NCBI RefSeq assembly: GCF_001425165.1
Contig: NZ_LMDU01000001.1
Coordinates: 1,395,311 to 1,459,310, forward strand
Source: Pelomonas sp. Root405
GTDB lineage: Bacteria; Pseudomonadota; Gammaproteobacteria; Burkholderiales; Burkholderiaceae_C
Direction: 5' to 3'
DNA: 64,000 nucleotides
Shown: positions 994-11,112 of the stretch, piece by piece
Layout of the letters: the number at the start of each line of letters is the position of its first letter
Numbering within the stretch: the stretch's first letter is position 1
Position numbers and translations under genes: made by a program
The notes under the pieces: generated by a model
Told to the model about the DNA's origin: nothing
Database searches by the model: none
The model's input: only the letters and a program-made list of their open reading frames with translations

Positions 994-1764
994 ATGAACA
1001 AGACCTCGATGACCCTCTTGCTGGCCCTGGCCAGCGCCACCCTGCTGGCCACCTCGCCGGCTCGTGCCGCCACGCCCAACTACGGCAGCTATGCCGGCAC
1101 CAGCGGTGGTGCCCGTAGCGGCGGCGAAGGCAGCTTCTCAGCCATGGCCAACACACCGTCCTACTACAAGTACTCCTATGCCTGGGGCATGGCCGGCCTG
1201 GGTGATGGCACGCTGCACGCGGCCGCCAGCGCCACGCCTTGCCCGGGCTGCCATGCCAAGACGGGTGCCGAATCGTCGGCCCGCTTCTGGGACACGGTGA
1301 GCTTCCGCAACGGCCAGAACCTCGGCCTGGCCAACCTCAGCGTCACCATCGATGGCACCCTCACGCCGGGCGGCAATGCGCAGGCTTGGGCGCGCTTCTA
1401 TGTCGGCGATCCCAAGGCCGACTTCTTCGACCGCCTGAACCACTATGCCCCGGCCGTGGCGCTGAAGTCCGGCACGACGGTCCTGGGCGACGAGCTGGTC
1501 ATTCCCTTGGGCGACAGCAGGTTCTTCATCTATGCCGAGCTCTACACCTCGGCCGTCGCGCTGCCCTATCCCGGCAGCCCCAACACCAGCGCCGACTTCG
1601 GCAACACCCTGCACTTCAACTGGACCCTGCCCGACGGCGTGACAACGAGCTCGGCTTCGGGCCAGTTCATGACCAGCGCCGTGCCAGAGCCATCGAGCTG
1701 GGCGATGAGCGGCGCCGGCCTGCTGCTGCTGAGCTGGCTGCTGCGTCGCCGCCGCGCGGCTTGA
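994..1764 (+). CDS. PEP-CTERM sorting domain protein with a CxxCH motif
   Basis: This is a secreted 256-residue protein. It has a signal peptide (residues 1-25, cleavage after SPARA) and a C-terminal exosortase sorting signal: VPEPSS, then a hydrophobic helix, then RRRR. That tail is known to direct proteins to exosortase/EpsH-type processing, usually together with exopolysaccharide. Unusually, it contains C83-P-G-C86-H87, the consensus for covalent haem c attachment; whether haem is bound is an inference. The rest looks like a beta-rich Gly/Ser/Ala domain without a recognised family. It follows the E1 beta gene by 22 bases on the same strand and converges on the hydrolase at 1766. Confidence 0.8.
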   Translation: MNKTSMTLLLALASATLLATSPARAATPNYGSYAGTSGGARSGGEGSFSAMANTPSYYKYSYAWGMAGLGDGTLHAAASATPCPGCHAKTGAESSARFWDTVSFRNGQNLGLANLSVTIDGTLTPGGNAQAWARFYVGDPKADFFDRLNHYAPAVALKSGTTVLGDELVIPLGDSRFFIYAELYTSAVALPYPGSPNTSADFGNTLHFNWTLPDGVTTSSASGQFMTSAVPEPSSWAMSGAGLLLLSWLLRRRRAA

Positions 1765-1765
1765 A

Positions 1766-2563
1766 TCAGCGCAGGCCGGCGAGAGCCACGGCCATGGCCT
1801 GCCGGTAAGCGGGCATGTCCTGCAGGTCGTTGTGGCTGCCGCCTTCGATGCGCAGCAGCCGGGCCCCCGGCAGCACCGCCTGGAGCTTGGCGCTTTCGGC
1901 GAAGGGAATGACCTCGTCGCGGTCGCCATGCACCAGCAGCACTGGGCCGCGTATGCGCTCGATCACACGGTCAGTGCGCAGCGGGTAGCGCAGTGCCAGC
2001 GTCGGCACCCAGGGGTAGTGGTGGCGTGCCAGGCCGGCGATGCTGGCATAGGGTGACACCAGCACCGTCAGGTCGGGCTGCACGGTCGCCGCCAGCTCGG
2101 CGGCCAGGCCGGTGCCCAGCGAGCGGCCATAGATGACGACGCGCTTGCCGGCATAGCGCGGTGCGACGCTGCGCCACACCGCCATCACATCGGCATGCAG
2201 CTGGGCCTCGCTCTCGATGCGCCCCGTGCTCTTGCCGTAGCCGCGGTAGTCCGGCATGACGAGATCGAAGCCGGCGCGGCGGTAGAAGTCCGTGTCGGTG
2301 AACCAGTTCTGCAGGCTGCCGCCATTGCCATGCAGGAAGAAGACCACACCGCGCGGCTCAGGCAGGCGCAGCGCCAGGACCGACAGCTTGGCACCTGGCA
2401 CGTCGACAAGGCGCTCGTGCACATCCGGCTCGGTGGCCAGGCGCGTATCGGCGGGCAGGGCCTGGGGGAAGAAGAGCAGGCTTTCCTGCTTCCACCACAG
2501 CAGCGCCACCACGGCCAGCCAGGCCAGCAGCGGCAGCAGCAACAGGGCCGCAACGACGCGCAT
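1766..2563 (-). CDS. alpha/beta hydrolase (BEM46/YfhR-like serine hydrolase)
   Basis: This is a membrane-anchored alpha/beta hydrolase of about 265 residues. An N-terminal hydrophobic segment (MRVVAALLLLPLLAWLAVVALLW) anchors the domain outside the cytoplasm. Visible motifs are the oxyanion loop FFLHGNGG, the nucleophile elbow GRSLG, the acid-loop HGDRDEVIP and the catalytic His in EGGSHND. This pattern matches the BEM46/YfhR group. The ATG at 2563 gives the membrane anchor; the frame stays open further upstream but that part is a shadow of the lipoprotein gene. It lies 20 bases after the transport lipoprotein gene and is probably the last gene of the Mla-type operon. The substrate is unknown; a lipid or ester would fit the context. 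Confidence 0.82.
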   Translation of the reverse strand: MRVVAALLLLPLLAWLAVVALLWWKQESLLFFPQALPADTRLATEPDVHERLVDVPGAKLSVLALRLPEPRGVVFFLHGNGGSLQNWFTDTDFYRRAGFDLVMPDYRGYGKSTGRIESEAQLHADVMAVWRSVAPRYAGKRVVIYGRSLGTGLAAELAATVQPDLTVLVSPYASIAGLARHHYPWVPTLALRYPLRTDRVIERIRGPVLLVHGDRDEVIPFAESAKLQAVLPGARLLRIEGGSHNDLQDMPAYRQAMAVALAGLR

Positions 2564-2583
2564 CCCGCGGCGGCGCGGCGCGT

Positions 2584-3159
2584 TCAACGGCAGCTCGCCG
2601 CCAGCCAGTTGGCCAGCTGCGGCAGCCAGTCGTCCACCGCCAGCGCGAGCGTGCGCACGGCGCCGGGCGCGTCGGGCGGGGCAGGCCGCTCGATGCGCCA
2701 ATGCTGTTGCTGCGCCGCGCCGGCGGACCACAGCGTGGCGTGCACGCGCAGCACGACCTGGCTGTTGCCCGGGCTGCTGAACACCTGCTCGAACTCGTCG
2801 AGGTTGACGGACAGCAGCGCTGCCGGCCGGCCGGCGCAGGCGGGCGAGACGGGTACGGCGGCCAGATGCTGCCGCAGACGCTGGGTCAGCAGCGCGGCCG
2901 GTGGCGCGGCCCACAGGCTGTCGCGGTAGTGCTGAAGGCGCTGGGCCTGCTCGAAGGCCAGGCGGTAGGCGATGCCTTCGCTGGCCACGGAGGGGGCTGC
3001 GGTCACCTCGGCAATGCGCCAAGCGAGCGCGCTGCTGGCCGCCATGAGCGCTGGTGCGGGGCCGAGGTCGTAAACCGCGCGCGTCGGCGCGGTGGGGGTC
3101 AGTGAGCAGGCGCTCAGGAGCAGCGCCGCGGCCAGCAGGGTTGTTGATGTCGCTTTCAT
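2584..3159 (-). CDS. ABC-type transport auxiliary lipoprotein (PqiC/DUF330-like)
   Basis: This is a 191-residue lipoprotein with a type II signal ending in the lipobox LLLSAC. It continues with TRAVYDLGPAP, the typical start of the auxiliary lipoprotein family associated with MCE transporters (PqiC/YmbA type). In that family the lipoprotein works with the MCE protein between inner and outer membrane in phospholipid trafficking. The ATG at 3159 overlaps the stop of the MCE gene by four bases (ATGA), indicating translational coupling. The assignment rests on the lipobox, the size and the gene neighbourhood more than on a catalytic motif. Confidence 0.82.
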   Translation of the reverse strand: MKATSTTLLAAALLLSACSLTPTAPTRAVYDLGPAPALMAASSALAWRIAEVTAAPSVASEGIAYRLAFEQAQRLQHYRDSLWAAPPAALLTQRLRQHLAAVPVSPACAGRPAALLSVNLDEFEQVFSSPGNSQVVLRVHATLWSAGAAQQQHWRIERPAPPDAPGAVRTLALAVDDWLPQLANWLAASCR

Positions 3160-4112
3160 TTGTTGAGCCGCTCCGCAAAGCCGGTTTCGCCAGGACCGGG
3201 CGACTGGGCGCCGCGGCCGAAGATCAGGCTTTGCGGCTGGGCGCCGAGGTCGGTGGCGGCGCGCTCGATGCTGCGGCTGGCGGCCGACAGGTCGCCCAAC
3301 AGCGGGCGGGTGCGCTGCGGCGTGTCGCCGACCAGCGCGAGTTCGAGATTGCGGCTGGTGGCCTGCACTTGCGCTGCGGCGCCGTCGATGCGGTCCAGCA
3401 CGGCCACGCGCGCTTTCAGTTCCTGCGTCAGCGCGCGGCTGTCGGCGGCCAGCGCCTCGATCTCGCGCAGGGCGGCGCTGGCGCGCTGGGCGGTCGCGTC
3501 GGCGTCTTTCAGGAAGACGGGCAGTTCGCGTGCGCCCGGCTGCAGTGCGGCCATCAGCCGGCTGGTGTCGGTGGCGGCCTGCTCCAGCTGCACCAGGCTG
3601 CGGTTGAGCTGCGCGCGGTTGCCCTCGCTGAGCAGGGCATTGAGCCGGTCGGCCGTCTCCGCAAAGCCGGCCAGCAGCAGCGGGCCGCTCTCGGCCAGAC
3701 GGTCCAGCAGTGTGGGCTTGAGGGCGATGCGGGCGCCCGGAGGCGCGCGCGTCAGTGGGGCCTTGGCATCCGCCTCTTCCAGGCTGACGAAGGACAGGCC
3801 CGTGACGCCTTGCAGGCCGAGCTGTGCATGGGTGGTGGCCGACACGGGTGCGGCCGCATCGACGGCAATGCCGACGAGGATCTGGCGCGGGTCGGCGGGG
3901 TCGAAGGCGATGGTGTCGACATAGCCGACCTGCACGCCGCGCAGCTTGACGGGCGCCTTCAGGTTGAGGCCCGGCACGCCGCTGCGGGCGACGACGGTGT
4001 AGTGCACGCGCTCGGTCCGGTCGCCCTGGAACCAGGCGACGCTGGCCGCCAGCGCAAGGCCGAGCAGCAGCAGGAAGAGACCGGCGGCAATGGCGTGGGC
4101 TTTGTTTTCCAT
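3156..4112 (-). CDS. MlaD-family MCE protein
   Basis: This is the periplasmic lipid-binding subunit of an MCE transporter (318 residues). It has one N-terminal transmembrane helix (about 9-28) and then a single MCE domain (about 37-115) with the hallmark segment GLNLKAPVKLRGVQVGYV. A long alpha-helical C-terminal region (about 140-290) follows, predicted to form a coiled tunnel or stalk. In the family, MlaD hexamers accept lipid next to the permease. It sits six bases after the ATPase gene and overlaps the lipoprotein gene, so it belongs to the same operon. Confidence 0.88.
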   Translation of the reverse strand: MENKAHAIAAGLFLLLLGLALAASVAWFQGDRTERVHYTVVARSGVPGLNLKAPVKLRGVQVGYVDTIAFDPADPRQILVGIAVDAAAPVSATTHAQLGLQGVTGLSFVSLEEADAKAPLTRAPPGARIALKPTLLDRLAESGPLLLAGFAETADRLNALLSEGNRAQLNRSLVQLEQAATDTSRLMAALQPGARELPVFLKDADATAQRASAALREIEALAADSRALTQELKARVAVLDRIDGAAAQVQATSRNLELALVGDTPQRTRPLLGDLSAASRSIERAATDLGAQPQSLIFGRGAQSPGPGETGFAERLNK

Positions 4113-5089: not shown

Positions 5090-6274
5090 TCAGACCCCTA
5101 CGTCGGAGAACAAGACGGCGAACACCGCATCGACCACGATGACCAGTGTGATCGCCGTGACCACCGACTGCGTGACGCTCTGCCCCAGGCTCTCGGTGTT
5201 GGGCTTGACCCGCAATCCGAAGTGGCAGGCCAGCAGCGCGATCAGGCCGCCGAAGAGCACGGACTTGGCCGAGCCCAGCCACAGGTTGACCGGCTCGACG
5301 ACGCTGGGCAGGGTGTGCATGAACTGCGTCGGGTCCAGCCCCAGCTGGGCCGCGGCCGCGGCCATGCCGCCGAGCAGCATCATGGCGCTGGTCCACAGCG
5401 CCACCAGCGGCAGCGACACGGCGAGCGCCACCACCTTGGGCAGCACCAGGCGCACGGTGTGCGAGATGCCCATGACCGACAGCGCGTCGAGCTCCTGCGT
5501 GACGCGCATGACGCCGATCTGCGCCGTCATGGCCGAGCCCGAGCGGCCGGCCACGATGATGGCCGCCAGCAGCGGCCCCAGCTCGCGCAGCACGGCCAGG
5601 CCGAGGATGTTGATGACGAAGATGTCGGCGCCGTAGGTCTTGAGCTGGCGCGAGATCAGGTAGGACAGCGTCAGGCCGACGAGGAAGCCCACCAGCGCCG
5701 TGATCGGCAGCGCCTGAGCGCCGGTGCGAAAGACATTGGCCGAGATCTCGCGCCAACCGATCAGCGACGGGTGGCGCAGCACCTGCACCAGGTCCAGCAG
5801 CAGGCGGCCGACCAGGGCGACGAGGTCGACCGCATGGCGGGCGAAGGCCAGCAGGCTGAGGCTCGCGCGTTCCAGGCCGGGGCCGACACGCGGGCCCCGT
5901 TTGGGCAGGGCGACCGGCTGCATGAACTGCGCGAACAGCGTCACATGCTCGGGCAGCCACAGCAGCCGCGGCGGTGGCTTGCGGCCCCAGCCCTGCCACA
6001 GCGTCAGCGCGCCGGCGGTGTCCAGGCGGTTCAGGGCGCGCAGGTCCCACAGCGCCTCGGGCGTCTCGGCCACCGCGGCGGCCACGCGCTGGCGGAACTC
6101 GGCATAGCGCTCGCGCAGGGCCAGCACGGTCCAGTCACCGCTGACGCGCCATTCGCGCGCAGAGCCCGGGCCGCCGCCGGCCTGCAGCTGCGGCGCGGCG
6201 TCGGCCGACGCGTCCGCCCGCGCCGCGGTCGGGCTGTCCACGGTGGGCAGGGGCAGGGCGCCGGCTTCGCTCAT
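5090..6274 (-). CDS. MlaE-family permease with N-terminal STAS-like domain
   Basis: This is the inner-membrane permease of the lipid transporter (394 residues). The C-terminal 250 residues are MlaE-like: VGFLVGLTLSYLISRQLKTYGAD, VLRELGPLLAAIIVAGRSGSAMTAQIG and later helices. The first 120 residues contain a STAS-like fold (WRVSGDWTVLAL... ALWDLRALNRLDTAGALTL), the function carried in E. coli by the separate MlaB protein. It is the first gene of the operon that continues through the ATPase, MCE protein, lipoprotein and hydrolase. The ATG at 6274 lies 88 bases from the divergent fusion gene. Confidence 0.88.
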   Translation of the reverse strand: MSEAGALPLPTVDSPTAARADASADAAPQLQAGGGPGSAREWRVSGDWTVLALRERYAEFRQRVAAAVAETPEALWDLRALNRLDTAGALTLWQGWGRKPPPRLLWLPEHVTLFAQFMQPVALPKRGPRVGPGLERASLSLLAFARHAVDLVALVGRLLLDLVQVLRHPSLIGWREISANVFRTGAQALPITALVGFLVGLTLSYLISRQLKTYGADIFVINILGLAVLRELGPLLAAIIVAGRSGSAMTAQIGVMRVTQELDALSVMGISHTVRLVLPKVVALAVSLPLVALWTSAMMLLGGMAAAAAQLGLDPTQFMHTLPSVVEPVNLWLGSAKSVLFGGLIALLACHFGLRVKPNTESLGQSVTQSVVTAITLVIVVDAVFAVLFSDVGV

Positions 6275-6362: not shown

Positions 6363-8567
6363 ATGGACCGTTTCATCCGCCGTGCCGATCCCAAGTCGTT
6401 GAGCGTGCGCGACCTGCTCGAAGCCCGCGACCACTACCACGTGCACATCGCCAACCTGCCGACGGTGCTGGGCACGGCGGTGGGCCGCTACCGCATCCGG
6501 CTGGACGATGCCAACTTCCAGGACGAGCAGGCCCGCCAGACCGGCGAGGAGCTGGGCCCGAGAACGCTGGACAACAGCGACTTCCGCCCCTGGTCCTGGC
6601 CCTGCGTGCTGGTGTTCGTCAGCGAGTGGCTGGACCGCGCGACGCTGGCCCGCCACCCCGAGCTGGCGGTGCCCCCGGTGCTCTACCTGCCCGACGGGCG
6701 CCAGGTGCGCACCTGCCCGGTGCTGGTGCAGCGGCGCGAGCACAACCTGGCGCCGGCCGACACGGCCGTCTATGCGGCCGACAAGTTCGGCCCCAACTTC
6801 CAGGTCCATGTGGCCGACCAGGGCCGCACGCGCATGGGCGTGGCCTCGGCCATCGTCGAGGACGGCGCCTGTGCCTTCGCGCTGGTCAGCCGCCACCTGA
6901 CCGCAGGCATCGACGCCGGCGCCGACGTCCACGCCCTGCCGCGAAGCCGCAAGCAAGTCATCGGCCGCACCACCTCGCGCAGCGTCGACGCCGTGCCGCT
7001 GACCGACATCTATCCCGGCTTCTCCAGCCGCGGTGCGCAGCTGACGCTGGACGCCGCGCTGGTGAAGCTGGACAGCATCGCGGCCACGCAGTCGCACTAC
7101 CTGGGCGTGGGCGCCATGGGGGCTGCCGTCGACCTGAGCTCGGACAAGATGAGCCTCAACCTGCTCGGCTGCCCGCTGTTCACCGAGCTGCCCGGTGGCA
7201 TCCGCGTGCAGGGCTGCGTGCACGGGCTGTTCTACCGGCACGCGAGCGTGGGCGGCGTGGATGCGCTGGCCGAGTTCCTGATCGGCCCGCGCCAGTCCGG
7301 CGGCAGCGTCGAGACGCGCCCGGGCGACTCGGGCGCCGTGTGGTTCTGGGACGAGGCGGCGGACACGCCGGCCGTGCCGGGCGCGGCGCCGCCGGTCAGC
7401 TTTCGCCCCCTGGCCGTGCAGTGGGGCGGCCACGGGTTCGGCGCGCTGAACGCGGGGCGGTCGACCGAGTTCGCGCTGGCCACGGGCTTCAGCTCGCTGT
7501 GCAAGGCGCTCAATGTCGGCCTGGTCGAGGACTGGCGCAGCGGCCAGAGCCGCTACTGGGGCAAGGTCGGGCACTACAACATCGGCTATGCGGCCTGCTT
7601 CGCGCTGCAGACCGACAAGGCCCGGGCGGTGTTCAAGGCCAACGCGACGGCCATCGGCGTGCGCGACGAGGACATCGTTGCCGGCCGCCTGCCGCTGGCC
7701 ACGCAGACGTCGAAGTTCATCGCGTTGGCCGACGTGCCCGACCTGGTGTGGCGCCGCAGCCGCGGCAAAGACAAGGCCAACCATTTCGCCGACATGGATG
7801 AGACGGGCACCGGCGCCTTCCAGGGCAAGACGCTGATGCAGCTGTGGCGCCAGCGGCCGTCATCGCGCGACCCGCAGGTGTGGAACGCCTTCTACAGCAG
7901 CATCGACCCCGACCGCAAACCGGCGCACCGCGGGGCGCTGCCGTTCCGGGTGGCGCAGCTCTACCGCGTGATGGTGCAGGCCGTAGCGGACCGCGAGCTG
8001 GACGCCTATGTCTGCGCGGCCGGCGTGCTGGCCCACTACATCGGCGACGCCTGCCAGCCGCTGCATGTGTCTCACCTGCACCACGGCGAGGCCGACGACC
8101 CGGACGATGACGAGGTGCATGCCGTCTACGAGACCGACATGCTGGACCAGGCCGCCGACGAGGTGGTGGTGGGCGTCAAGCAGCGCGTGGCCGACCTGGC
8201 CGGCCGGCCGCTGGTCAACGGGCCGCTGGGCGCGGCGGATGCCGTCGTGCAGCTGATGCGCCGCACCATGAAGGCGCTGCCGCCCGCGGAGGTGCTGGAG
8301 GTCTTCAACCGCGTGCGCGGCCGGGGCCAGGCGGCGGCGTTGTGGGCCGAACTCGGCCCGCGCACGATGGACCGCATGGCCGATGGCGCCGTCACGCTGG
8401 CGACCGTCTGGCAGTCGGCCTGGTCGGCGGGCGGGGGTGACGAGCACATGACGCTGGCGGCCTGCAAGAAGCCCGTGCCCACCCGGCAGCTCAAGAAGCT
8501 CTATGACACCAAGAGCTTTGCCGAGTCGCGCTGGCTGCACGAAATGACGCTGGCGGACCTGAGCTGA
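6363..8567 (+). CDS. fusion of trypsin-like serine protease domain and phospholipase C/P1 nuclease-like zinc domain
   Basis: This 734-residue protein appears to join two hydrolases. The N-terminal half has a plausible chymotrypsin-fold triad: His178 in LVSRHLTAG, Asp230 in LDAALVKLD and Ser323 in RPGDSGAVW. The C-terminal part carries zinc-hydrolase motifs in the order known from bacterial zinc phospholipase C: NHFADMD (His474), H558-YIG-D562, His568 in QPLH and H586-AVY-E590. The spacing of H558, D562 and H568 matches the family exactly. No signal peptide or membrane helix is visible. The ATG at 6363 is chosen because AGAGGA precedes it by nine bases; an upstream TTG at 6342 lacks this. It is monocistronic and divergent from the lipid transporter. 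The substrates are unknown. Confidence 0.72.
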   Translation: MDRFIRRADPKSLSVRDLLEARDHYHVHIANLPTVLGTAVGRYRIRLDDANFQDEQARQTGEELGPRTLDNSDFRPWSWPCVLVFVSEWLDRATLARHPELAVPPVLYLPDGRQVRTCPVLVQRREHNLAPADTAVYAADKFGPNFQVHVADQGRTRMGVASAIVEDGACAFALVSRHLTAGIDAGADVHALPRSRKQVIGRTTSRSVDAVPLTDIYPGFSSRGAQLTLDAALVKLDSIAATQSHYLGVGAMGAAVDLSSDKMSLNLLGCPLFTELPGGIRVQGCVHGLFYRHASVGGVDALAEFLIGPRQSGGSVETRPGDSGAVWFWDEAADTPAVPGAAPPVSFRPLAVQWGGHGFGALNAGRSTEFALATGFSSLCKALNVGLVEDWRSGQSRYWGKVGHYNIGYAACFALQTDKARAVFKANATAIGVRDEDIVAGRLPLATQTSKFIALADVPDLVWRRSRGKDKANHFADMDETGTGAFQGKTLMQLWRQRPSSRDPQVWNAFYSSIDPDRKPAHRGALPFRVAQLYRVMVQAVADRELDAYVCAAGVLAHYIGDACQPLHVSHLHHGEADDPDDDEVHAVYETDMLDQAADEVVVGVKQRVADLAGRPLVNGPLGAADAVVQLMRRTMKALPPAEVLEVFNRVRGRGQAAALWAELGPRTMDRMADGAVTLATVWQSAWSAGGGDEHMTLAACKKPVPTRQLKKLYDTKSFAESRWLHEMTLADLS

Positions 8568-8583: not shown

Positions 8584-8666
8584 GACGGGCCACCTCGCTA
8601 CGATCGCTTTGAACCTCCGGGCGTCGGGCCGGAACTCACCCCGCAAGAGAAACGGAAGTGGCGGGC

Positions 8667-9287
8667 ATGTTGAATTGGCTCAAGGTCAGCAAGAAGCGCG
8701 ATGAGCGCGCGCCGGCACCCGGGCGTGGGCCGGCCGCCGAGGCGCTGGAACTGGCGTTGCTGGACGGCATCCGGCGCGGCCGGCGGGCGGAGTTCGATGC
8801 CCTCTACCGCCTCTACCACCCGCGGCTGTCGCGTTTTCTGGCGCACATGATGCGGCAGTCCAACGCCCTCGACGAGGTGCTGAACGACACCATGCTGGTC
8901 GTCTGGCAGCGCGCCGACAGCTTCGACGGGCGCAGCAAGCTGTCGACGTGGATCTTCGGCATCGCCTACCGAAAGGCGCTGAAGGCGCTGAGCCGACAGG
9001 ACCTGGCCGTGGACGCCGACGCGGTCGACGAGCCGGCAGACACCGGCCCCGGGCCGGAACAGCGGCTGGGCTTGGCTCAGCTGCGCGGGCGGCTGCGCGG
9101 CGCGATGGCCGAGCTGTCGCCGGAGCACCGGGCGGTCGTGGAACTCTGCTATTTCCATGACATGGCCTATGCCGAAATCGCCGAGGTCGTCGGCTGCCCG
9201 GCCGAGACCGTGAAGACTCGGATGTTTTATGCGCGGCGCCGCCTGCGCGTGTTGCTCGACGATCTCGCCGGGCACGGAGAACTGTGA
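8667..9287 (+). CDS. ECF-type RNA polymerase sigma factor
   Basis: This is a 206-residue extracytoplasmic-function sigma factor. Region 2 is visible as FDALYRLYHPRLSRFLAHMM and WIFGIAYRKALK; region 4 is ELSPEHRAVVELCYFHDMAYAEIAEVVGCPAETVKTRMFYARRRL. The ATG at 8667 is preferred to a GTG at 8658 because GGAAG sits eight bases upstream of it. The stop overlaps the anti-sigma start (TGATG), so the pair is made together. It should direct polymerase to an envelope-related regulon, probably including its own operon. Confidence 0.9.
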   Translation: MLNWLKVSKKRDERAPAPGRGPAAEALELALLDGIRRGRRAEFDALYRLYHPRLSRFLAHMMRQSNALDEVLNDTMLVVWQRADSFDGRSKLSTWIFGIAYRKALKALSRQDLAVDADAVDEPADTGPGPEQRLGLAQLRGRLRGAMAELSPEHRAVVELCYFHDMAYAEIAEVVGCPAETVKTRMFYARRRLRVLLDDLAGHGEL

Positions 9288-9907
9288 TGAGTGTGGTTGT
9301 ACCGATGGAACATGACGAACACGCGGCCGTGCAGGCCTTGCTGCCCTGGTACGCGCGCGGGCAGCTGGGCGACGCCGAGATGGGCGAGGTGCAGCGCCAT
9401 CTGCTGCAATGCGCCGCCTGCCGCAACGAGCTCGCGGCCGAGCAGCCCATGCAGACGCTGATGCAGGCGGCCGGCGGCCAGGCCCACGGCGGTGATGTGG
9501 AGGCCGGCCTGGCCAGGATGCATGCGCTGATGGAACCGGCCCGCCCGAGGGCTGCCGCAGCGCCGCGTTGGGTACCCTGGGCTTTGGGCCTGCAAGGCGC
9601 GGCGGTTGCGGTGCTGCTGGGGCTGCTGCTGATGCCCCGCCAGGACGAGCCGGACTACCAGGGCCTGTCTGCCGCAGCGGCAGCCGGCGCAACGCCGGTG
9701 GTGGCAGACGCCCTCGTCATGTTCAAGCCCGGCGCCAGCGAGCAGGCCGTTCGCGAGCTGCTGCAGGCCCACAGGGCAGGCGTCGTCGCCGGGCCGACCG
9801 AGACCGGCGCCTGGCTGCTGCGTGTCGATGCCCGGGGCTTGGCCGCGCTGCGCACCGCGTCCATCGTCGCCATGGCGGAGCCGTTGCAGCCGGGGCCGGC
9901 GCGATGA
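9287..9907 (+). CDS. zinc-finger anti-sigma factor with propeptide-like periplasmic domain
   Basis: This is a 206-residue membrane anti-sigma factor. The N-terminal cytoplasmic domain has the ZAS/zf-HC2 motif H38-x3-C42-x2-C45 (RHLLQCAAC), a known sigma-binding fold. A single transmembrane helix spans about residues 94-115. The remaining 90 residues are periplasmic and contain ALVMFKPGASEQAVRELLQ and GAWLLRV, resembling the inhibitor/propeptide domains at the front of subtilases. The next gene, overlapping by four bases, encodes a subtilase. The propeptide likeness is my reading of the pattern and is not proven. Confidence 0.82.
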   Translation: MSVVVPMEHDEHAAVQALLPWYARGQLGDAEMGEVQRHLLQCAACRNELAAEQPMQTLMQAAGGQAHGGDVEAGLARMHALMEPARPRAAAAPRWVPWALGLQGAAVAVLLGLLLMPRQDEPDYQGLSAAAAAGATPVVADALVMFKPGASEQAVRELLQAHRAGVVAGPTETGAWLLRVDARGLAALRTASIVAMAEPLQPGPAR

Positions 9908-11112
9908 AGCTCTGGTTGCGCCTGCTGGCCTTGCTGCTCTGCTGCATGGCCAGCCCGGCCCAGGCGCAGGCCGAGGAAGCCCAGCGCCAGGTCCTCGTCA
10001 TGCTGCAGCTGCCCAAGGCCCACTACCGGCCCGATGGCAGCTATGCCGGCACCTATGGCGAAGGCGTGGGCCGCCAGTCGCGCCAGCAGACCGCCCAGGC
10101 GCTGGCCCAGGCCTACAAGCTGGAGATGCGCAGCGAATGGGCCATGCCGCTGGCCGGCGTGGACTGCTTCGTCATGCGCCTGCCCGAGGGCGATGCGCGC
10201 ACGTCGGCCGATGCGGCCCGCGCCGTGGCCGAGGACAGGCGCGTTGCCTGGGCCCAGCCGGTCGGCCTCTACCGGGCCGAGGCCAGCCAGCAGGAGCCGC
10301 TCTACCTGGCCCAGCCGGCGGCGCGCCAATGGCAGCTGGCTGAGCTGCACAAGCTGGCTACCGGCCGCGGCGTGCGCGTGGCCGTGGTCGACAGCGGCGT
10401 CGAGGCTCGGCATCCCGATCTGGCCGGACAGGTCGTCTTCAATGAGAACTTCGTCGACGACAAGCTGCCGCCGGCCGAAGGCCATGGCACGGCGATCGCC
10501 GGCGTCATCGCTGCACGGGCCGACAACGGCGCCGGCATTGCCGGCGTCGCCCCCGAGGCACGGCTGCTGGCGCTGCGCGCCTGCTGGCAGGCCCCGCAGG
10601 AGCAGACGCTGTGCACCGGCCTGAGCCTGGCCAAGGCGCTGTATGCCGCCATCCAGCAGGGTGCCCACATCATCAACATGAGCCTCGGCGGACCGGACGA
10701 CCGCCTGCTGGCCCTGCTGCTGGACCAGGCGCAGGCACGCGGGGCGATGGTCGTCGCGGCGCTGCCGCGCAGCGGCGGGCCCGACCAGTTCCCGGCCAGC
10801 CACCCCGGCGTGCTCGTCGTCGGCAGCGCACTGCCGCTGCCCGTGGGGGCCGTGCTGGCGCCGGGGCGTGACGTGCCGAGCACGGCGGTGGGAGGCGGCT
10901 GGGCGGTCGTGTCGGGCTCGTCCTTCGCGGCTGCGCATGCCGCAGGGCTGCTGGCCCTGGTGCGCGAGCTGGACGGTCGGCGCGGCACGCTGGCAATGAA
11001 GACGGCCCTCGTCACCGCGGCGCAGGGCCGCATCGACAGCTGCGCCACGCTGGCCCGCCATGCCGGCACGCGCGGTGTGGCCTGCACCGGACTGGGGCAA
11101 ACTGCCGATTGA
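9904..11112 (+). CDS. secreted S8 (subtilisin-like) serine peptidase
   Basis: This is a 402-residue exported subtilase. It has a signal peptide (MKLWLRLLALLLCCM... AQAQA), a pro-region of about 120 residues and the catalytic domain with Asp163 (VAVVDSGVEARHPDL), His194 (GHGTAIAGVIAA) and Ser340 (SGSSFAAAHAAG, replacing the usual GTSMA). All three triad residues are present, so it should be active. Start ATG 9904 overlaps the anti-sigma stop (ATGA); the longer open frame upstream is a shadow of the anti-sigma gene. Its place after sigma and anti-sigma suggests it belongs to the same envelope response. Confidence 0.88.
   Translation: MKLWLRLLALLLCCMASPAQAQAEEAQRQVLVMLQLPKAHYRPDGSYAGTYGEGVGRQSRQQTAQALAQAYKLEMRSEWAMPLAGVDCFVMRLPEGDARTSADAARAVAEDRRVAWAQPVGLYRAEASQQEPLYLAQPAARQWQLAELHKLATGRGVRVAVVDSGVEARHPDLAGQVVFNENFVDDKLPPAEGHGTAIAGVIAARADNGAGIAGVAPEARLLALRACWQAPQEQTLCTGLSLAKALYAAIQQGAHIINMSLGGPDDRLLALLLDQAQARGAMVVAALPRSGGPDQFPASHPGVLVVGSALPLPVGAVLAPGRDVPSTAVGGGWAVVSGSSFAAAHAAGLLALVRELDGRRGTLAMKTALVTAAQGRIDSCATLARHAGTRGVACTGLGQTAD

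Follow-up and report, generated by a model that had tools for sequence, protein, structure and literature searches.

S1/P1-type nucleases and bacterial zinc phospholipases C (PLCs) are the closest described relatives of the zinc enzyme considered here. According to the available sections of the respective reports, Trp21 is the first residue of mature S1 nuclease and binds zinc through its N-terminal main chain (PMC5201275), and Trp27 of SmNuc1 is likewise N-terminal and binds zinc (PMC11705217). The available text on the Listeria PLC (PMC10576769) describes metal binding by the main chain of W1, reduced activity for W1 substitutions other than Phe, and a loss of activity when the propeptide is present or when a single residue is added before W1. 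The proenzyme has a 26-residue propeptide, which is removed by a separate metalloprotease, Mpl (same portion of PMC10576769). Activation of a nuclease by a protease has been described for Hachiman, where a pro-nuclease is switched on by a trypsin-like domain that cleaves after Ile (excerpt of PMC12799240); trypsin-like proteases thus need not prefer Lys or Arg. In Caulobacter LypC the protease is needed, while endonuclease mutants are still functional (excerpt of PMC13236601), and pairs and fusions of trypsin and NucA were described by Kaur et al. (excerpt of PMC7159879).

The gene analysed here lies at positions 6363..8567 (+) of the window, by which we mean the whole 64,000-nucleotide stretch of DNA that was analysed, and its frame is open from ATG to stop (734 amino acids plus the stop codon). 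A preliminary description had assigned two separate domains to this one 734-residue frame and had proposed, among other checks, structure prediction and a database search for both domains in the same order. The predicted whole-chain structure has a two-domain architecture (residues 1–388 and 399–734) rather than a single fold over the whole chain, by which one continuous fold was ruled out, and the search returned near-full-length homologues with 32–81% identity from records labelled Pelomonas, Cupriavidus, Ramlibacter, Myxococcaceae, Minicystis, Acidobacteria and Bacteroidetes. The proteins of two Pelomonas records are 81% identical to the window protein. Chance motif matches were ruled out by the homologues together with invariant alignment columns. 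The third-position GC content of the frame is 0.94. Comparison with the 81% identical relative L010 gave dN 0.122 and dS 0.465, with alike values for the two halves (0.112/0.473 and 0.134/0.455), indicating that both parts are under selection. No signal peptide was evident in the window protein (maximum nine-residue mean hydropathy of 1.6 within residues 1–40), as had been stated beforehand; an ordinary secreted S1/P1 nuclease was rejected on this ground, and the fusion protein is probably cytoplasmic. No NCBIfam model matched it. In the window protein, a NAL1-related protease and a nuclease/phospholipase C-type zinc enzyme form one chain.

The NAL1-like serine protease part comprises residues 1–388 (6363..7526, +) and was assigned from profile and fold matches. 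Using a profile of 11 homologues, the best match of these residues was rice NARROW LEAF 1 (NAL1; PDB entry 7y77, E 3.6e-11), and NAL1 accounted for nine of the 11 PDB sequences listed by the protease profile search. In Foldseek, ranks 1–34 were all NAL1 chains and were followed by bacterial chymotrypsin-like proteases; the best match was 8hau_B (E 3.0e-16, target TM 0.74), with identities of 16–19% over the NAL1 rows. The earlier designation as a trypsin-like protease therefore stands as far as the chymotrypsin fold is concerned and was too narrow as a label, the part being specifically NAL1-like by profile and by Foldseek. Residues H178 (6894..6896, +), D230 (7050..7052, +) and S323, the predicted catalytic serine in G321-D322-S323-G324 (7323..7334, +), are invariant in all 12 aligned protease domains and lie opposite the corresponding H, D and S stretches of NAL1 in the profile alignment, so that the triad had been placed correctly. 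NAL1 (7y77, 8hau and others) has the same fold as residues 1–388 and the same H, D and S places; it differs in its low identity to the window protein, given above, and in that the titles of the NAL1 PDB entries listed mention no zinc hydrolase. The window protein scored 12.5 bits against Pfam NAL1_N (cut-off 27) and Nal1_C was not reported, which marks it as a distant relative and not NAL1 proper. Among three relatives compared with Nal1_C (cut-off 26.1 bits), L017 (46.7) and L034 (32.9) pass and L014 (21.5) fails. The residue six before S323, which we take to correspond to trypsin position 189, the position that sets trypsin specificity, differs among the 12 rows of the protease alignment, and cutting after Lys or Arg is accordingly not expected. 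A stand-alone bacterial protein of 347 residues was seen in genome G748 (L067, 1501-2541, −; Nal1_C 194.8 and NAL1_N 95.0 bits). Scoring far above both Pfam cut-offs, it appears to be a close bacterial counterpart of the plant NAL1 protease.

Residues 399–734 (7557..8564, +) are assigned to the PLC/P1-nuclease superfamily on the basis of Pfam, the predicted model and Foldseek, with a substrate that would be either nucleic acid or lipid. Nine metal ligands are predicted, namely W399, H404 (7572..7574), D460 (7740..7742), H474 in NHFADMD (7782..7784), H558, D562 and H568 (8034..8066), and H586 and E590 (8118..8132; all on the + strand). None of the nine varies among the 13 fusion C-domains, and the spacings H558-x3-D562-x5-H568 and H586-x3-E590 are constant as well. 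The order of the zinc site in the preliminary description, with H474, H558/D562/H568 and H586/E590, was right; its list lacked W399, H404 and D460, which complete the set. E590 occupies the position where P1 nuclease has Asp. The eight ligands besides Trp are kept in 33 of 33 stand-alone relatives; these rows were preselected for a W..H start, so that their Trp count has no weight as evidence, and L070 and L074 (both without the W..H motif) and L032 (cut) were omitted from the set. Residues 399–734 modelled alone (13 rows) gave a pLDDT of 93.0 and a pTM of 0.93. With this part as the query, three PDB matches were found by Foldseek at E <= 0.001, two of them B. cereus PLC entries and one a plant P1-type nuclease; the PLC entry 1ah7 ranked first (E 8.3e-4), level with the nuclease 3w52 (E 9.8e-4). 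Ranks 1–31 were all PLCs or S1/P1-type nucleases, and later ranks outside the superfamily had probabilities of at most 0.08 (best 50 rows). In Pfam, both S1-P1_nuclease (PF02265; 25.4 bits, gathering score 29.5) and Zn_dep_PLPC (PF00882; 16.7 bits, gathering score 26.8) scored below threshold; at E up to 1, they matched ten and 11 of the 11 members, respectively. Since both scores fall under the cut-offs and Foldseek mixes the two groups at similar E values, neither PLC nor nuclease can be assigned, and an attempt to tell them apart by fold failed for want of separation in Foldseek. The earlier term phospholipase-C-like thus holds for the superfamily and does not hold as a choice of PLC over nuclease. 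The zinc domain is found in other arrangements as well: in L052, a frame of 737 residues, a signal peptide is followed by an S1/P1-like domain and then by a long C-terminal part.

W399 (7557..7559, +) corresponds to Trp1, the N-terminal residue of S1/P1 nucleases and PLC: position 1 of the Pfam S1-P1 model (PF02265) aligns to it. In the fusion it is internal to the chain, and it is kept in all 22 fusion loci (a set of 18 plus L078, L103, L104 and L105). In the stand-alone relatives, Trp directly follows a signal-peptide-like hydrophobic stretch in 34 of 36 cases, as judged by a 9-mer hydropathy exceeding 2.0 somewhere in the 25 residues that precede it; these 36 are a subset of longer match lists, from which L038 (a fusion), L067 (protease only) and L069 (a fragment) were set aside. 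In the fusion rows, the hydropathy of the same 25 residues peaks at no more than 1.40 (11/11). By this comparison, the fusion has a protease in the place of its relatives' signal peptide, with the Trp retained. The superfamily also has members without a Trp start, L070 having none and L074 having Phe. The linker (residues 389–398; 7527..7556, +) varies in sequence and is constant in length, the distance from the conserved Leu383 to Trp being 16 residues in 19 of 19 sequences, with the same spacing seen by eye in L103, L104 and L105. The residue before Trp is Tyr in 11, Thr in five and Ser in three of the 19, and Thr in L103, L104 and L105, so that no clear cleavage motif emerges. Residues 389–399 have pLDDT values below 50 in the whole-chain model (11 rows), whereas the first ten residues have a pLDDT of 94 when the chain is modelled from W399 on (13 rows). 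This contrast, drawn from two models built on shallow and differing alignments (11 and 13 rows), fits completion of the metal site only after a cut.

We consider it somewhat probable (roughly 55%) that the protein is a single-chain zymogen in which the zinc site becomes complete once the chain is cut before W399, probably by the protein's own protease domain. In the uncut chain the α-amine of W399 would be locked in a peptide bond and could not bind the third metal, which would keep the hydrolase off. A trigger, perhaps oligomerization, would set off the protease domain, which would then cut the bond that precedes W399 (Y398-W399 in the window protein; relatives have Y, T or S in front of the W), either in cis or between neighbouring molecules. 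W399, the predicted first residue after cleavage, would as a new N-terminal Trp complete the trinuclear site, and an active nuclease or phospholipase would be freed. Given the lack of a signal peptide, its target would be the nucleic acid of the cell itself (or of a phage) or the cell's own membrane, which suggests a self-limiting or anti-phage role; this is the least certain part of the interpretation. The two catalytic sets, the internal Trp and its conservation are read from the sequence; the cut, its maker, the trigger and the substrate are what we infer. The internal Trp399 supplies a chemical basis for activation of the zinc domain by the protease, and the earlier guess that one domain could activate the other is strengthened.

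Several observations run against such a zymogen, and most of them bear on an alternative that we judge unlikely, namely that the uncut protein works as it is. W399 would then stay internal, another ligand or water would serve at the metal site, and the protease would be a regulatory or binding module or would act on other substrates. The constant linker length is expected equally from rigid packing without a cut, and the low pLDDT of the linker may merely reflect the shallow alignment (11 rows). A clear cleavage motif is absent, no conserved neighbour or defence operon was found, and L070 and L074 show that members of the superfamily can do without the Trp start, L070 having no N-terminal Trp at all. 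The fused endonuclease is moreover dispensable in LypC (available part of PMC13236601), so that the effector function need not reside in the hydrolase of such a fusion, and this speaks against a simple effector role. A working uncut chain is nevertheless hard to reconcile with a Trp that is kept in 22 of 22 loci, if its N-terminal role has been lost, with the inactivation of the Listeria enzyme by one added residue (excerpt of PMC10576769) and with the invariance of the protease triad. It is quite improbable that another host protease, or degradation of the N-terminal part, activates the hydrolase, with the NAL1-like domain acting mainly as a sensor or an inhibitory pro-part: the separate metalloprotease that removes the Listeria propeptide (available part of PMC10576769) offers a parallel, but the same chain carries an intact triad in all 12 rows, which makes an outside protease seem unnecessary. 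An exported digestive or scavenging enzyme that leaves by a non-Sec route and is cleaved outside the cell is hardly credible, since the stand-alone relatives look secreted (34/36) but the N-terminus of the window protein has no signal-peptide-like stretch and, as a weak test, no secretion genes were recognized by eye among the neighbouring ORFs.

The fusion gene is rare and patchy. Fusion-length matches were found in three of 20 genomes of the genus and two of 299 in the family sample (own genome included in both), and in the phylum sample (1/398) in the own genome only. The Bacteroidota sample contained two in 345 genomes; in 70 more of these genomes the match was weaker or confined to the zinc domain. 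One match was found among 188 genomes in the phylum sample of G343, with a frame broken near its start; two were found among 199 in that of G345, where a third match is weak; and three were found among 234 in the family of G341, together with one broken-frame and one weak match. Four of 72,556 plasmid records carry the fusion, all alphaproteobacterial and two of them predicted to be conjugative, and these copies are annotated 'hypothetical protein'. None of 50,697 phage records matched and no match was confirmed in viral contigs; a phage origin was ruled out by these results. In the window the gene is flanked by mlaE (5090-6274, −) and an ECF sigma gene (8658-9287, +). At 18 congeneric mlaE loci, the fusion adjoins mlaE in three, the ECF gene is directly there in nine and neither is seen in six (within the stretch covered); the fusion gene is a clean single-gene insertion or loss between mlaE and the ECF gene. 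Downstream, the ORF list gives three frames in a row (8658-11112, +): the ECF sigma gene, a short protein (9284-9907) that may carry an anti-sigma zinc motif, and a protease resembling subtilisin. Frames are broken in five of 22 fusion loci (L013, L020, L036, L037 and L105, the last as L105/L107), perhaps through frequent inactivation, or through assembly errors in some. The scattered distribution, the copies on plasmids and the interrupted frames are compatible with an accessory gene that is costly to its host, a defence gene for example, and also with accessory genes of other kinds. The trees of the two halves (13 rows) agree in grouping the window protein with L010, these with L012, and the Bacteroidota rows with L015; four rows lie on long branches in the C-domain tree. 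This agreement fits inheritance of both parts as a unit, and a single fusion event is likely from these trees.

The preliminary description knew of no standard family with this pairing. That is right for Pfam and NCBIfam, in which no single model covers both the protease and the zinc domain, but the PADLOC profile PDLC03017 ('trypsin-like') matches each half of the window protein taken separately, and does so in order (19.4 and 24.8 bits). It matches 11 of 11 members (best 7.6e-31), and matches neither the stand-alone protease L067 nor a piece of the stand-alone nuclease L039. The profile also matches L098, a trypsin-like part with a P-loop, along its length (168 bits); it therefore mixes architectures and is weak evidence for defence. 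The L098 frame (1192-3525) is open over 778 residues, its P-loop reads GSGKT, and further protease- and ATPase-like frames lie nearby; by reading of the sequence only, this region resembles components of CARD-NLR-type systems. Ten neighbouring ORFs at six loci contained no defence system: nine had no match at E up to 0.01 and the tenth matched RtcR-like regulator models only. Neither a conserved neighbour nor a defence operon was seen among the loci compared, and a conserved operon or immunity gene was ruled out, as the neighbours differ between genera in the ORF lists and these ten ORFs hold no defence system. On a Sphingobium plasmid (L034, 5801-7138 and 7257-7807), the fusion adjoins a ParD/RelE-type toxin–antitoxin pair and a gene annotated as an anti-phage dGTPase. 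As a tentative and rather doubtful proposal, the protein could be a self-activating intracellular effector, a proenzyme without its N-terminal Trp ligand combined with the protease that creates this ligand, and so a one-gene abortive or anti-phage system found over four phyla.

If activation by cleavage before W399 is true, it would be a simple way to silence a metal-dependent nuclease or phospholipase inside the cell, as fusion hides the N-terminal metal ligand and the fused protease exposes it. NAL1-type proteases would be placed in a bacterial context in which a substrate, their own chain, can be tested, and one clear prediction follows, a fragment beginning exactly at W399.

The S1/P1 nucleases (S1, SmNuc1 and AtBFN2) share with the window protein the fold, the metal ligands and the Trp at the start of the domain; their Trp is a free N-terminus after a signal peptide, whereas that of the window protein is internal, behind a protease. 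The bacterial zinc PLCs (B. cereus, 1ah7; Listeria, 8cqm) agree with the window protein in fold, in the order of the ligands, in Trp1 and in the logic of a proenzyme, but in Listeria the activating protease is separate and the pro-part has 26 residues, compared with 398 in the window protein. In the literature covered, which included few subscription journals, a protease joined to the S1/P1–PLC fold was not found described, and gating by a newly made N-terminus as a metal ligand was not met in the literature on protease-activated immune nucleases that was examined. LypC, in the available part of its report (PMC13236601), is also one chain with a trypsin-like domain, a flexible linker and a C-terminal hydrolase; the latter is an endonuclease of another type (catalytic H471/N505), and LypC functions as part of an operon that also encodes LypA and LypB. 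The trypsin–NucA fusions likewise combine a trypsin-like part with a C-terminal hydrolase and differ in endonuclease type (NucA/HNH; excerpt of PMC7159879). As far as the available sections show, the closest precedent in print is provided by the pro-nucleases that proteases activate in phage defence (Tuck et al., 2025; PMC12799240). In the gated metallo-β-lactamase (MBL) nucleases of Hachiman and AVAST a trypsin-like protease likewise activates a pro-nuclease; there the nuclease has the MBL fold, is always encoded by a separate gene and has its active site unmasked by cutting of the nuclease, and a missing N-terminal metal ligand is not described in those sections (PMC12799240). If the cut before W399 is made as proposed, protease-activated pro-nucleases, so far of the MBL fold in the same sections (PMC12799240), would extend to the S1/P1–PLC fold.
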